The translations under genes and the position numbers were made by a program. From positions 1-35,495 of the IMG/VR virus record IMGVR_UViG_3300027306_000009: a stretch of DNA of 35,495 nt; one strand, 5' to 3'. The notes under the pieces are model-generated. The model did not search any database and had not been told where the DNA came from. It saw only the letters and a list, made by a program, of their open reading frames with translations. Below are positions 20,779 to 25,388 of the stretch, one piece after another. Numbering within the stretch: the stretch's first letter is position 1; every line of letters starts with the position of its first letter. The DNA is from a virus.

Positions 20779-21906
20779 TCAGGCGTTCGGATCCTTGCAG
20801 TAGGTGTCCAGGGCGATCACGCCGAAGTCGCGCGTGACCAGGCTGTCCTTGGACTTGTAGGTGGCCTTCTTGACACCGAAGATCGAGTTGGTGCCGATCT
20901 TCACGGCGTTGCCGTGGTCCTTGACTTCCTCGGTCCAGTCGAAGCGCAGGCCGTTGCCGTTGGAGCCGAAGGCGATGAAGGCAGCCTGAGCGCCCAGGAA
21001 CAGCGCCCGTGCAGCCGGCACGTTGCCACCAGCGCCGTAGTCGCTGAAGCGCAGCACGTTGCGGTGCTGGTGAATGATCGTGCTGGCGTACATGCCATCG
21101 GAGCTGTCGAAAATCGGGTTCTTGCGGCCTTCGGCGGCGGCGGCGGCCTTCTGGATGTCCAGCCACTGGCCGGTGGCCGTGTTGGACTTCATGGCGTCGA
21201 ACTGCCAGGGGTGCATCAGGGCAACGTAGTGCTCACCGCCTTCGATCTCGATGGGCAGCATCGAGATATCGTCGGTGGTGTCGCCACCCATGGTGCGAGC
21301 CTTTGCAACAGCACGGTCAATCAGGCGCAGGTCGAAACCGTCGTCGGTGGCGATGTCTGCCTTGGCCGTCGCGTTGCCGCCGTACATCTGGTGGCCAGCG
21401 TCTGGTGCAGTCACGCCGTTGATGCCGAACATGCTGTTGTTGCGCTTCCAGACGAAGCCCTGATCGATCTGCGGCTGGGCGCCCGACAGGTAGATGAAGA
21501 AGAGCTCGTCGAACAGGCGCTTCCACCAGTCGGTGGCGGCCCGCTTGGCATCCTGGCGGATGTCGCGCAGGGTGCGCTTGCGGGTCATGCGGCCACCGAG
21601 GTCAACGCCACCGCGAACCTGGTCGATGCGCAGGCGGTCGGTGTAGTACTTCAGGGGCTGCTCTTTGCCGTCCAGGGTTTCGTCGCCGATGACCGGCTCC
21701 ATGGACATGGGCATCAGCAGGTCGACGGTGATTTCGTCACCGGCGTCCGACTGCAGGTCCATCAGCAACTGGATGGGCAGGCGGGAGTTCTTGCCTTCAC
21801 CCATCATCTTGCGGGTGAAGTACGAGGACTTGTTGACAGCGGCAGCCAGCAACAGGCTCCACTTCTTGACGGCTTGAGGGTCATTGACCCCAACAACGGT
21901 ACGCAT
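20779..21906 (-). CDS. Major capsid protein, N4-gp56 / DUF4043 family (375 aa)
   Basis: The conserved stretch LLMDLQSDAGDEITVDLLMP, then LKYYTDRLRIDQVRGG, GGRMTRKRTLRDIRQ and DWWKRLFDELFFIYLSG, are hallmarks of the N4-gp56 type HK97-fold major capsid family. Length fits. ATG 21906 is preferred because AAGGAG lies 7 nt upstream; a GTG at 21912 would be too close to that site. Two hairpins with GGA loops lie just upstream, next to a CsrA-like gene, so translation may be controlled. A UUCG hairpin follows the stop. Confidence 0.93.
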   Translation of the reverse strand: MRTVVGVNDPQAVKKWSLLLAAAVNKSSYFTRKMMGEGKNSRLPIQLLMDLQSDAGDEITVDLLMPMSMEPVIGDETLDGKEQPLKYYTDRLRIDQVRGGVDLGGRMTRKRTLRDIRQDAKRAATDWWKRLFDELFFIYLSGAQPQIDQGFVWKRNNSMFGINGVTAPDAGHQMYGGNATAKADIATDDGFDLRLIDRAVAKARTMGGDTTDDISMLPIEIEGGEHYVALMHPWQFDAMKSNTATGQWLDIQKAAAAAEGRKNPIFDSSDGMYASTIIHQHRNVLRFSDYGAGGNVPAARALFLGAQAAFIAFGSNGNGLRFDWTEEVKDHGNAVKIGTNSIFGVKKATYKSKDSLVTRDFGVIALDTYCKDPNA

Positions 21907-21913
21907 GGACACA

Positions 21914-21919
21914 CTCCTT
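21914..21919 (-). promoter_or_regulatory. Shine-Dalgarno of the capsid gene (contains GGA)
   Basis: AAGGAG lies 7 nt before ATG 21906 and decides the start over the upstream GTG. It contains the GGA core that CsrA proteins recognise, and lies about 15 nt downstream of two GGA-loop hairpins. Confidence 0.8.
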
Positions 21920-21933
21920 CAACGGTGTTGACG

Positions 21934-21950
21934 GAGCGCGTCCTGCGCTC
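21934..21950 (-). promoter_or_regulatory. GGA-loop hairpin 2 in the capsid leader (candidate CsrA site)
   Basis: On the minus strand GAGCGC and GCGCTC form a perfect 6-bp stem with the loop AGGAC. GGA in a hairpin loop is the recognised core of CsrA binding sites. No T-tract follows. Confidence 0.6.
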
Positions 21951-21953
21951 AAT

Positions 21954-21968
21954 GCGGATTCCATCCGC
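21954..21968 (-). promoter_or_regulatory. GGA-loop hairpin 1 in the capsid leader (candidate CsrA site)
   Basis: On the minus strand GCGGAT and ATCCGC form a perfect stem around GGA (or a 5-bp stem around TGGAA). It lies 16 nt after the CsrA-like gene's stop and three bases before hairpin 2. Confidence 0.6.
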
Positions 21969-21983
21969 TATGGGACAAAGGTG

Positions 21984-22169
21984 TCAGGCCTTTGCGGTTT
22001 CCGGTTTGGCTTGCGCCTGGGCGGACCTGCTCAGCTTGACACCCTCATCGACTTCGATGATGAGGCGGGCCCGGTTCCGGCCCGACTTCTCTTCAACCCG
22101 AACGCTGGCGACGTTTCCGATGGCGATGCGCTCGCCGACCTTCACGTCCATGACAACTCGGTTTTTCAC
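21984..22169 (-). CDS. CsrA-like RNA-binding protein (61 aa)
   Basis: The segment VKVGERIAIGN...VRVEEKSG aligns by eye with the CsrA core (RVGETLMIGDEVTVTV), and VKLSR near the C-terminal end aligns with the CsrA VAVHR region that carries the RNA-contacting Arg. The total length is right for CsrA (about 60 aa). It lacks the usual Ala-Pro before the last strand. It overlaps the scaffold stop (ATGA) and lies directly before a capsid leader with two GGA-loop hairpins, a fitting target. Family membership is by pattern only. An unrelated small beta-barrel is the alternative. Confidence 0.55.
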   Translation of the reverse strand: MKNRVVMDVKVGERIAIGNVASVRVEEKSGRNRARLIIEVDEGVKLSRSAQAQAKPETAKA

Positions 22170-23077
22170 TCGGCTGCTTCCCAGCGTTCTTGCTGATCTG
22201 GTGTCAATCTAGCCACTGCGCGCTCCAGTGCAATGCCAGAAAGTCCATCCAAGTGAGAAAACTCATCTGAATTGACAGACGGGGTTCCTGCAGACGGGCC
22301 CCGGCCAACGGTGGGAGGCACTTTCGACAGGTCGGGCGTGCGGTTGCGGGCGACCTCGGCGGCCTTGTTCGGCTTGCCGTCCTTGCCGGTGTCGTCGCCA
22401 CCGGCCTTCTGCGCCGGGATCTTGAACTTGGCCGCTGTGACCATGTGGGCATTGCCCAAGATCTCGCGCCACAGTTCCGGGCCTTCTTCACCTTCAGCTG
22501 TCTGAGACAGCGCCTTGATGGTCTTGTCCAGGTGCTGCAGTGCGCCCTTGTTCGCGTCGGCCTTGTAGTCAAAGCCGGACTTCTTGATGTCGGAGAAGAA
22601 GCCGTCCAGGGTCTTGCGGTACTCGCGCTGCAGCTGCTGGGTCGTCATGTCGGCCGACACCTCGGCGCGGATGCGGGCGCTGTTGACCTTGTCGCGCTCT
22701 TGCTCGATGCGATCCAGTTCGGCGTCGTACTGGTCTTCGCTGAGCTCTCCTTCCTCGTACTTGCGGCGAGCATCGCGGCGGGCCTGGGCCAAGTCCTTCA
22801 GCTGCTGATCCAGGTTTTCGCCCCCTTGGGCCTGGTAGATGGGCTCCACCCTGGCGGTGGCGGCTGGCTGATCTTCGCCAGCGCCGGAACCAGGCTCGGC
22901 CGCAGAACCGGTTGCGTCACCTTGCTGGCCGTCATCATCGCCAGTGGCGCCGTCGTCACCGGAGCCCGCTGCATCGCCGTGGTCAGCATCGGCGCCATCC
23001 AGTTCAGCAAGCTGCTCTCGTTCTTCAGCGGTCAGGCCGGAGAGGTCGTCGTTGTCGGTCGTGTCTTGGGTGCCCAT
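22166..23077 (-). CDS. Capsid scaffolding protein (303 aa)
   Basis: The N-terminus is extremely acidic and low-complexity (Asp/Gly/Ala), followed by a long charged helical middle (about 90-200; LKDLAQARRDARRKYEEGEL) and a C-terminal part that ends in an acidic/Arg helix. This composition, between portal and major capsid genes, is the usual look of a podovirus scaffolding protein that guides procapsid assembly. No protease motif is visible. The gene starts at ATG 23077 with a purine-rich leader and overlaps the CsrA-like start. Confidence 0.82.
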   Translation of the reverse strand: MGTQDTTDNDDLSGLTAEEREQLAELDGADADHGDAAGSGDDGATGDDDGQQGDATGSAAEPGSGAGEDQPAATARVEPIYQAQGGENLDQQLKDLAQARRDARRKYEEGELSEDQYDAELDRIEQERDKVNSARIRAEVSADMTTQQLQREYRKTLDGFFSDIKKSGFDYKADANKGALQHLDKTIKALSQTAEGEEGPELWREILGNAHMVTAAKFKIPAQKAGGDDTGKDGKPNKAAEVARNRTPDLSKVPPTVGRGPSAGTPSVNSDEFSHLDGLSGIALERAVARLTPDQQERWEAAE

Positions 23078-23114: not shown

Positions 23115-25388
23115 TCATTGCGGCATCACGCCATCGTTCTGCATCGTCTCGATGCCAGCTGCTGCGCCATCGCCCTGCATGAGTTCAGGAGGTGGCTGCA
23201 TGGGGACTGCCTGTGCAGGCGCTGGGATGTTCGGGTCTTGCCCGCCCTGATCCTGGAAGCCTGCGCCCTTGGCGATTTCGTCGGCAACCGGTGCCACACC
23301 AGGAACCGTGGCCACGATCTGGGCGGCTTGGAGCGCGCTGTACATGGACTCGATGAGGCTCTTGACCTTCTTGGCGTCCATGTCCGACACCCGGGCCTTG
23401 ATTTCGGCGATCTCGGCCAGCACGCGCTCCATGGCGAGCTGCTGCTCGAGTTGGGCCTGCTTCTGCTTTTCTTGCTGGGCGGCCTGCTCTTCCGGCGTCG
23501 GGTTCTTGGAGGGGTCGCGCTTGCCGTTGAACTCGCGCACGCGGGCGACAACCTCTTCTTTCATCGGCAGGTCAAACTGCTCGACGATCAGATCCAGCAT
23601 GTTCACAATGGCTTGCGGGGCCACGGGAGCGATGACCTTCATCATTTCCATGAACTGCTCAAGCGCCGCGGCCTGCAGGTTCGCGCGCCAGTCCTGCTCG
23701 GAGACGATGAAATCCGCCTGCGTGGCTGTGATGTCGTTGAGCACTTCACCGGTGTCGGGGTTGATCTCGTTGACGGTCAGCCACTCGACAGGCTTGTGCT
23801 GCCCCACGATGCGGATGACGCGCTGCTGCGTCATGAACTGGGCGATGTTGCTCAGGCGGATCTGCCCGGCGATCTGGATGGAGATGCGCAGGCTCTCGAA
23901 GAGCTCGGCCGTGGTTGTGCCACCCTGGCTCTGCTTGGCGATGATGGCCTTGCCGCTGGTGGCATTCGTGTCGCGTCCGAGGTTCTCCTGCGTCACGCCC
24001 GACACGTTCTGCAGGTGCATGCGCGAACGGTCGGCCAGCTGAAGGCTGACGTTCACGTCCGTGGTGTTCTCGACAGGCCGGATGTCCTTGTTGGAGTTCT
24101 TCTCGATCCAAGCATCCGGGCGCGCGATCTCTGCGCGGGCCTCGTCGACGTCGTCCACGGCGCCCTTGTCGGCGATCACCCGATTGGATGATGCCGCCCA
24201 GATGGCCTTGGACATGCGCTTGTTCAGATCCTTCTGGGCGTCACGCATGCCGCGCCAGACGCCGTAGCACATGCCATCGCCACGGCGGCGGTAGGCATAC
24301 ACAGGGATCAGAGGGAACTTGTTGTGCTTGAACGGGCTGGGGCCGTCCCAAAGCGGTGCGGCCTCGGTGCAGATCATGACCCGCATGCGCCAGGCCACTG
24401 TCTGGTACAGGGGCCAACCTTCGGCCATGGCCGCTTTCGCACGCTGGTCGCGCTCATCGGCGATCTTGCCCATCATCGGGCCGCCACTGAACACCTTGAC
24501 CGTCTCGGGCACCTTGTACCAGGCCTCGATCAGGTCCACAGCGGTGCGCCGGCCCATGTCTGCCTGGGAAGTGCCAACGTAGGCGCCGCGGTCACGCTGG
24601 CCCATGGGCATGCGCAGCGAATAGTCGTAGTCGTGGGCAGCGGTCAGGCGCTCGCCCAAGTACCAGCGCTCGGTGAGCTCGTCCGTGTCCTCGGCGTCGC
24701 GCGTGTAGCTGGAACCCAGCAAGAGGTCACGGCAGTCCGGCATCAGCGCGATGGCGTAGTCCAGATCGAGTTTCTTGCGGCGGAAAATGTACCGGCCATC
24801 CTTGTTGTAGTCGATGTCCCGGCTGCGGGAATCTCGGATGACGTTGCGCCAGTCCTCAGAGCCGGAGTAGATCAACTCCTGGTCAGGCTCGATGTTGATG
24901 GACTCTTCCAAGTAGCCCAGGCCAGCGACGACAGACTGCTTGAACGACAGCGACCGATGGAAGCGCGCCATGTTCACGTCGTCGGTGTACTTGACCGTCT
25001 TGGTGATGACCTCGGCACCCTTCTCGTCGCTTTGCTCGCGGGGGAGGATCTTGTAGTCCACCCGGTTGCGCTTCTCGGTGCCAGTGATCCACTCGACCGA
25101 CAGCCGGCCCTCGTTGTAGACCAGCGCGCCCTGGCCACGGTCGGCAAGCTCTTGGGCTTCATCGACGGTCCACTGCAGGTGGTCGTGAAAGTCCTCGTCC
25201 ACAGCCATCTGGTAGCGCTCTTCGGCCTGAAGGTCCATTTCCTCGTGCAGCGTGGAGATGAGCACACCATGGCGCTCCTGCATGGCGGCTCGCTGCTCCG
25301 CTTTCTCGGCAGCCTCCTTGCCGACGGCCGAAACCTCTTCGTCTGGGTCGACTGCCGGATTGGAGGTGTTCTCGCGCTGCACGAACAT
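23115..25388 (-). CDS. Portal protein, P22-like (757 aa)
   Basis: The length is close to that of P22 portal (725 aa). It has an N-terminal charged helical region, a core with YKILPREQSD, SEDWRNVIRDSRSRDIDY and MPDCRDLLLGSSY segments, and a Gln/Ala-rich C-terminal helical barrel-like tail (about 650-757; AAQQEKQKQAQLEQQLAMER). It would form the dodecameric DNA gate at one head vertex and bind TerL and the adaptor. It lies two bases after the preceding stop. The P22-like assignment is by pattern and position. Confidence 0.9.
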   Translation of the reverse strand: MFVQRENTSNPAVDPDEEVSAVGKEAAEKAEQRAAMQERHGVLISTLHEEMDLQAEERYQMAVDEDFHDHLQWTVDEAQELADRGQGALVYNEGRLSVEWITGTEKRNRVDYKILPREQSDEKGAEVITKTVKYTDDVNMARFHRSLSFKQSVVAGLGYLEESINIEPDQELIYSGSEDWRNVIRDSRSRDIDYNKDGRYIFRRKKLDLDYAIALMPDCRDLLLGSSYTRDAEDTDELTERWYLGERLTAAHDYDYSLRMPMGQRDRGAYVGTSQADMGRRTAVDLIEAWYKVPETVKVFSGGPMMGKIADERDQRAKAAMAEGWPLYQTVAWRMRVMICTEAAPLWDGPSPFKHNKFPLIPVYAYRRRGDGMCYGVWRGMRDAQKDLNKRMSKAIWAASSNRVIADKGAVDDVDEARAEIARPDAWIEKNSNKDIRPVENTTDVNVSLQLADRSRMHLQNVSGVTQENLGRDTNATSGKAIIAKQSQGGTTTAELFESLRISIQIAGQIRLSNIAQFMTQQRVIRIVGQHKPVEWLTVNEINPDTGEVLNDITATQADFIVSEQDWRANLQAAALEQFMEMMKVIAPVAPQAIVNMLDLIVEQFDLPMKEEVVARVREFNGKRDPSKNPTPEEQAAQQEKQKQAQLEQQLAMERVLAEIAEIKARVSDMDAKKVKSLIESMYSALQAAQIVATVPGVAPVADEIAKGAGFQDQGGQDPNIPAPAQAVPMQPPPELMQGDGAAAGIETMQNDGVMPQ

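Follow-up and report, generated by a model that had tools for sequence, protein, structure and literature searches.

A divergent CsrA-like phage protein and a predicted bistable leader element at the starts of capsid and other late genes

Organization of the capsid locus

The DNA analyzed here (the window) is a stretch of 35,495 nucleotides from the viral record IMGVR_UViG_3300027306_000009, and all of its features described below lie on the minus strand. A P22-type portal gene (23115..25388; PF16510, E 1.7e-143) is followed by an ORF at 22166..23077, by the gene of a 61-aa CsrA-like protein (21984..22169, stop codon included; PHROG 8397) and by the major capsid gene (20779..21906; PF13252, E 1.5e-60; PHROG 334). 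The csrA-like gene has a GTG start that shares the last 4 nt of the ORF upstream, in agreement with the overlap described previously. This upstream ORF had been called the scaffold gene. Its place in the gene order fits that label, and the function is assigned from this position; the only strong family match is PHROG 8246, a family of no assigned function. The capsid start was placed at the ATG whose first base is 21906; the ORF list begins at a GTG at 21912.

The leader of the capsid gene comprises the 77 nt between the stop codon of the csrA-like gene and the capsid ATG (21907..21983). Two perfect 6-bp hairpins with GGA in their loops and a Shine-Dalgarno sequence, AAGGAG (21914..21919), had been reported in it, and all were confirmed. 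Hairpin 1 (21954..21968) has arms GCGGAT and ATCCGC around the loop GGA, and is a possible second binding site in the clade of the window. The second hairpin, henceforth hairpin A (21934..21950), has arms GAGCGC and GCGCTC around the loop AGGAC; it represents the conserved element and is the proposed binding site of the CsrA-like protein.

Among 142 parsed loci, a CsrA-like ORF ends at most 260 nt before the start of the capsid gene in 124 and lies within about 1.8 kb upstream in 130, none being found there in 12; some of these loci share one contig or record and are not all independent. The csrA-like gene precedes the capsid gene in named phages of the genera Lessievirus, Ittyvirus, Parlovirus, Pavtokvirus, Skulduggeryvirus and Lastavirus, and DC1 has a small annotated ORF on the minus strand between the two. 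The capsid gene is relocated in Agrobacterium phage ph08, Ochrobactrum phage POI1126 and Sinorhizobium phage PBC5, where the CsrA-like ORF still follows the scaffold-like gene. The adjacency of csrA and capsid is already visible in Table 3 of the JC1 report (PMC9144972). Phage F116 also encodes a second CsrA-type protein (NC_006552 16229-16600, minus strand), annotated as a transcriptional regulator.

Family and fold of the CsrA-like protein

The window protein matches PHROG 8397, 'CsrA-like regulator', with E 2.8e-10, and this PHROG is matched by 57 of the 70 members of the family. Comparison with Pfam CsrA (PF02599), suggested earlier as a check, gave a divided result: the single sequence scores 16.9 bits, under the 27-bit cut-off, whereas 39 of 70 aligned relatives match at E <= 0.01. 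The window protein also scores 19.3 bits against Pfam MlaD (cut-off 25.1). A profile built from the 70 relatives finds solved RsmE/CsrA structures with a best E of 1.2e-12; the single window protein, searched against the PDB by phmmer, yielded 0 matches. On sequence grounds, the protein is a divergent relative of CsrA and not a standard CsrA.

An AlphaFold monomer model of the window protein has a pLDDT of 84.3 and a pTM of 0.58. With this model, rows 1 to 12 of the Foldseek output are all CsrA, RsmA or RsmE chains (E 0.019 to 1.3); rows 1 to 11 have TM(query) values of 0.58-0.73, with a best E of only 0.019. VIA-align gave a Z of 7.2 for RsmA, the first row other than CsrA scoring 2.4. According to the model, the protein has the CsrA-type beta fold. 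The resemblance to the CsrA core noticed in the first-pass annotation is thus borne out at the level of family, profile and predicted structure alike.

Leu4, Arg6 and Arg44 are important for RNA binding by CsrA. The corresponding residues in the window protein are Met, Val and Arg. Among aligned members, position 6 is hydrophobic in all 70, and Arg or Lys is retained at position 7 in 62 of 70 and at position 44 in 49 of 70. A KSG motif is new in the phage CsrA-like family. The putative binding surface differs from that of CsrA, and the replaced Arg6 speaks against the mechanism proposed below.

A conserved hairpin in capsid leaders

The element shared by the capsid leaders consists of GCGC, a loop of 4-6 nt and GUGC. 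Of 105 distinct capsid leaders, 90 contain this strict motif, whereas dinucleotide shuffles predict 0.93; it occurs in only 1 of 105 control stretches of the same length inside the capsid gene. With eight hairpins placed by hand for the analysis of hairpin A and helix B, hairpin A is found in 99 of the 105 leaders; L003, carrying a chance hairpin, and five hairpin-less leaders were dropped before the counts were made.

The pair closing the loop is C-G in all 53 representative leaders, and the next pair is G-U in 47 and G-C in 6. The loop begins with ANGA or ANGGA in 45 of the 53. GGA is present in 20 loops, including the AGGAC loop of the window, and absent in 33, so that strict GGA conservation was rejected; the full ANGGAN loop occurs in 2 of 53. 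These leaders point to ANGA(N)/ANGGA(N) as the loop code, in place of strict GGA.

On average, 1.36 of the 2 outer pairs of hairpin A are formed, compared with 0.89 ± 0.09 when arms were re-paired between leaders (0 of 5000). In a MAFFT alignment of 45 of the 53 representatives, eight being omitted for spacer length or loop type, the outer pairs covary (score 0.216 versus 0.135 ± 0.018; 0 of 500 shuffles). Both kinds of shuffle leave some relatedness among leaders in place. The covariation suggested earlier as a check on both hairpins thus holds for hairpin A, but hairpin 1 is confined to close relatives: it is present in L001, L002, L007 and L010, and in L009 with one compensated stem pair. 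Of the proposed signal of two GGA-loop hairpins, the conserved hairpin A is retained; GGA itself varies, and the two-hairpin layout was rejected as a general design because hairpin 1 is limited to one clade. Upstream of hairpin A, 13 of 52 representative leaders do carry a hairpin with a GGA or ANGA loop, where 3.6 would be expected.

In the 99 capsid leaders, hairpin A ends 20-48 nt (median 33) before the start codon; at POI1126 gp21 it ends 19 nt from the start. Scanning the window with a covariance model of the leader gave one convincing match (21901-21954, minus strand; E 2.8e-9) and two others with E about 1. The convincing match is not an independent discovery, since a near-identical leader is among the 45 used for training. 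A search of Rfam gave no gathering match in 10 loci and no leader match in the window.

A GATAAT box was observed 13-18 nt upstream of hairpin A in L004, L093, L094, L096, L104 and their relatives, often preceded at about 18 nt by a TTTGC-like stretch; this arrangement is not general across leaders. Such boxes suggest a capsid promoter from which RNA would start near hairpin A. A promoter was rejected as the cause of the conservation, as upstream −10-like hexamers numbered 44 in 52 leaders against 47.0 expected, although some named phages share the GATAAT-type box.

A predicted competing helix over the start

Hairpin A can pair, through its loop and 3′ arm, with the bases immediately ahead of the start codon in the same leader. 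The resulting duplex, helix B, has a mean energy of −11.4 kcal/mol with a leader's own sequence, compared with −8.0 ± 0.3 after partners were swapped (0 of 5000 as good), and 22 non-capsid elements behave likewise (−11.8 versus −9.2 ± 0.5 kcal/mol; 0 of 5000). Loop and start region match each other in kind: AUGA loops face UCAU, GGA loops UCC and AGA loops UCU. Since the 3′ arm is common to both, hairpin A and helix B are mutually exclusive. In the window, helix B (21901..21948) is supported by the predicted minimum-energy fold and by this leader-specific pairing. Eleven pairs would join 21933-21943 to 21907-21917 and five pairs 21944-21948 to 21901-21905, so that the Shine-Dalgarno sequence would be hidden and the start codon flanked.

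The predicted minimum-energy fold includes hairpin A in only 5 of 53 leaders. The mean penalty for imposing it is 7.3 kcal/mol; in the window leader, whose minimum-energy fold has −33.7 kcal/mol and whose fold with hairpin A enforced has −15.7, the penalty is 18.3. Helix B is usually the predicted ground state; with hairpin A imposed, the mean predicted pairing of the Shine-Dalgarno region falls from 0.73 to 0.54. Helix B is weak in several leaders (L022, −2.0; L057, −2.9; L045, −3.2 kcal/mol), and in leaders of the enteric/Ittyvirus type it pairs mainly upstream of the Shine-Dalgarno sequence. Taken as predictions, these folds describe a capsid leader that is bistable between hairpin A and helix B. 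Given the high cost of enforcing hairpin A, binding of a protein alone may not suffice to win it without co-transcriptional folding.

Because the default fold hides the Shine-Dalgarno sequence, the anatomy would favor activation over the usual repression by CsrA. Repression would require the CsrA-like protein to bridge the loop of hairpin A and the GGA of the Shine-Dalgarno sequence so that ribosomes are blocked, helix B being a second lock or only the folded default; most CsrA mechanisms are repressive (PMC7492729), the window has GGA in hairpin 1, in hairpin A and in the Shine-Dalgarno sequence, and the excess of upstream GGA/ANGA-loop hairpins points the same way. We nevertheless consider repression unlikely, as helix B covers the start even when no protein is present and is kept by covariation, the Shine-Dalgarno GGA varies across leaders, and hairpin A lies at least 20 nt from the start in the 99 capsid leaders and 19 nt from it at POI1126 gp21. 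A distance of about 20 nt is roughly beyond the footprint of the initiating ribosome.

The element at other late genes

Outside capsid genes, the covariance model gave 24 matches at E <= 1e-3. An annotated start codon marks the exact end of 14 of them, an in-frame alternative start that of 2 (POI1126 gp26 and the Pavtok endolysin) and an ORF start in an unannotated contig that of 7, while 1 (G013) looks false. As the model includes the start codon, the ATG is partly built into these matches; the annotated gene is not. The non-capsid targets comprise endolysins, DarB-like proteins, the terminase large subunit, head and other virion proteins and an internal virion protein. In ph08, POI1126 and PBC5, the model places the element at the starts of capsid, DarB-like, endolysin and structural genes. 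Model R1 has no match in 8 of 34 records, some of which bear the element, and the matches at PBC5 36044, F116 33960 and G013 40674 were rejected by eye as false.

An independent 17-base scan of viral contigs gave 50 distinct matches, 31 of which are followed by a Shine-Dalgarno sequence, a start and an ORF, compared with 4.5% of random places. Among these 31, 24 precede capsid genes and 4 precede genes that are terminase-like by eye. A filter requiring a start delimited by an in-frame stop retained 16 of 51 and missed obvious leaders. The recurrence of the element at endolysin, DarB-like, terminase and structural gene starts in CsrA-encoding phages makes the balance between scaffold and capsid, which the first-pass annotation had taken as the purpose of the circuit, too narrow, although a post-transcriptional circuit as such appears likely.

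Several further observations concern individual starts. The element points to later in-frame starts than those annotated for the Pavtok endolysin (NC_070921, 42156 to 42183), POI1126 gp26 (NC_070932, 18530 to 18563) and the ph08 capsid (NC_070876, 40370 to 40337). In L220, L227, L253, L258 and L259, all matches of the 17-base scan, the expected capsid-like start reads ATC or ATA instead of ATG, GTG or TTG, straight after a good Shine-Dalgarno sequence and the element; these could be non-standard starts. The element also occurs on F116 p53 and at G009 48062 (minus strand), members of PHROG 8123 (no assigned function) in two distant phages.

Relation between the element and the CsrA-like protein

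The loop type is identical in 28 of 37 pairs of genes from the same genome (shuffled mean 5.9, maximum 15), these pairs including the near-identical genomes G021 and G022. The most CsrA-like proteins coincide with full ANGGAN loops (L111-L114 and L124). PTXU04, whose N4-type capsid is unrelated and whose CsrA lies above the Pfam cut-off, has one covariance-model match (6e-5), at a tail-fibre start and with a 7-bp stem, and five capsid relatives devoid of a CsrA match have no covariance-model match below E 0.039.

The correspondence has exceptions. F116 has two csrA-like genes, yet no element at its capsid gene; in Microcystis phage Mwe-JY07 the element is accompanied by no more than a weak CsrA-like candidate (hhalign probability 44.6). 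Two leaders, L080 and L081 (about 2930-2995), have lost the loop of hairpin A (GCGCATGTGC and GCGCACGTGC, respectively). The genome of L081 (G033) keeps its csrA-like gene, while that of L080 (G019) has no CsrA match and carries antisense ORFs at the expected place of csrA.

Loops such as CAUGGAAG agree with the general CsrA consensus, and hosts such as E. coli and Pseudomonas do have CsrA. Host CsrA or RsmA could thus be the ligand, as the first-pass annotation had allowed, linking late-gene translation to host physiology. We regard this as very improbable, because most hairpin A loops are not GGA and because chromosomal csrA is reported missing in B. cepacia, B. cenocepacia and S. meliloti (PMC7366521), although the element occurs in Burkholderia Lessieviruses and in phage PBC5.

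These csrA-positive phages of hosts reported without chromosomal csrA also speak against a reading in which the element is independent of the CsrA-like protein, working as a co-transcriptional timer or as a site for a host or other phage factor, while the protein serves to manipulate the host or is carried in the virion. In favor of it, hairpin A is located 5′ of helix B and predicted as the weaker fold, as would suit a timer, and G018 carries the element although its 42 kb contig gave no match to CsrA. The csrA of JC1 was termed a moron, and one CsrA peptide was detected in purified virions (PMC9144972); host manipulation is the role proposed for csrA in PTXU04 work (PMC11879866). We consider independence quite unlikely, given the linkage of the genes at 124 of 142 capsid loci, the genome-specific loops shared by unlinked genes, the missing element in the five CsrA-less relatives, and a loop and closing pair that resemble CsrA targets, up to the canonical ANGGAN loops of L111-L114 and L124.

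Proposed mechanism

We favor, with moderate confidence, a model in which the phage CsrA-type protein acts in trans on bistable late-gene leaders and activates their translation via hairpin A. The family and fold of the protein, the gene order, the element, the covariation of both helices, the late-gene targets and the genome-specific loop types were computed directly. From there, we infer that the CsrA-like protein is the ligand, that its binding favors hairpin A and that the effect is activation. As to function, PTXU04 forms smaller plaques when its csrA is knocked down, and expression of this gene was among those found toxic or interfering (PMC11879866).

The protein would be made from the gene between scaffold and capsid and act in trans on the element at the capsid start and, in related phages, at other late-gene starts. 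An undisturbed leader would adopt helix B: bases between the Shine-Dalgarno sequence and the start codon would be paired with the loop and 3′ arm of hairpin A, and the ribosome site would thereby be hidden. During transcription, hairpin A may form first, given its 5′ position. By gripping its ANGA(N) or ANGGA(N) loop, the CsrA-like protein would prevent helix B, and the 30S subunit could load some 20 nt or more downstream of the held hairpin. Late proteins would then be made after the CsrA-like protein has accumulated, which in this way probably times late virus protein synthesis.

A wider claim, to which we give slightly better than even chances, is that phage CsrA proteins of one clade, recognizing a loop code of their own, C-ANGA(N)-G, control a post-transcriptional late regulon across the phages of many hosts. 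The same start-anchored bistable switch would then act on capsid, endolysin, DarB-like and terminase mRNAs, and CsrA would serve these viruses as an activator dedicated to late genes, not as a gene for manipulating the host.

Implications and comparison with known systems

In short-tailed phages, the timing of late genes is usually attributed to transcription; if the proposed mechanism is true, a translational layer is added to it. The element would offer phage-borne csrA a concrete target within the phage genome that is open to mutation, and the family would provide a natural series of CsrA-RNA pairs with altered specificity. A full-text search of the open-access literature gave no report of such a leader element or regulon.

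Phage-borne csrA has been described before (Sobrero and Valverde 2020, PMC7366521; JC1, PMC9144972; PTXU04, PMC11879866), in the same protein family and in the same or related phages. In their passages on csrA, these reports propose host regulation or a moron and name no phage RNA target; the PTXU04 report presents the role of phage csrA as not tested before and cites host manipulation (PMC11879866).

Phage Mu offers a parallel in mechanism, as the Com protein is said to melt the inhibition structure of mom (PMC6483171). There too, a small phage protein, with a leader hairpin beside a translation-inhibition structure, activates a late gene; however, Com is a zinc-finger protein and its target is mom, whereas the CsrA-like protein has a predicted CsrA fold and many putative targets. 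A precedent within the CsrA family is E. coli CsrA, which activates ymdA by opening a hairpin that hides the Shine-Dalgarno sequence (PMC7492729). Both cases would involve a CsrA-type protein, two leader sites and a sequestering structure opened for the 30S subunit. In contrast to ymdA, a single host gene, the phage system combines a divergent phage CsrA with a start-anchored element on many late genes, an explicit competing hairpin in the leader and non-GGA loops. Leader control by CsrA, in itself of a known kind, thus appears to extend here to a phage regulon.
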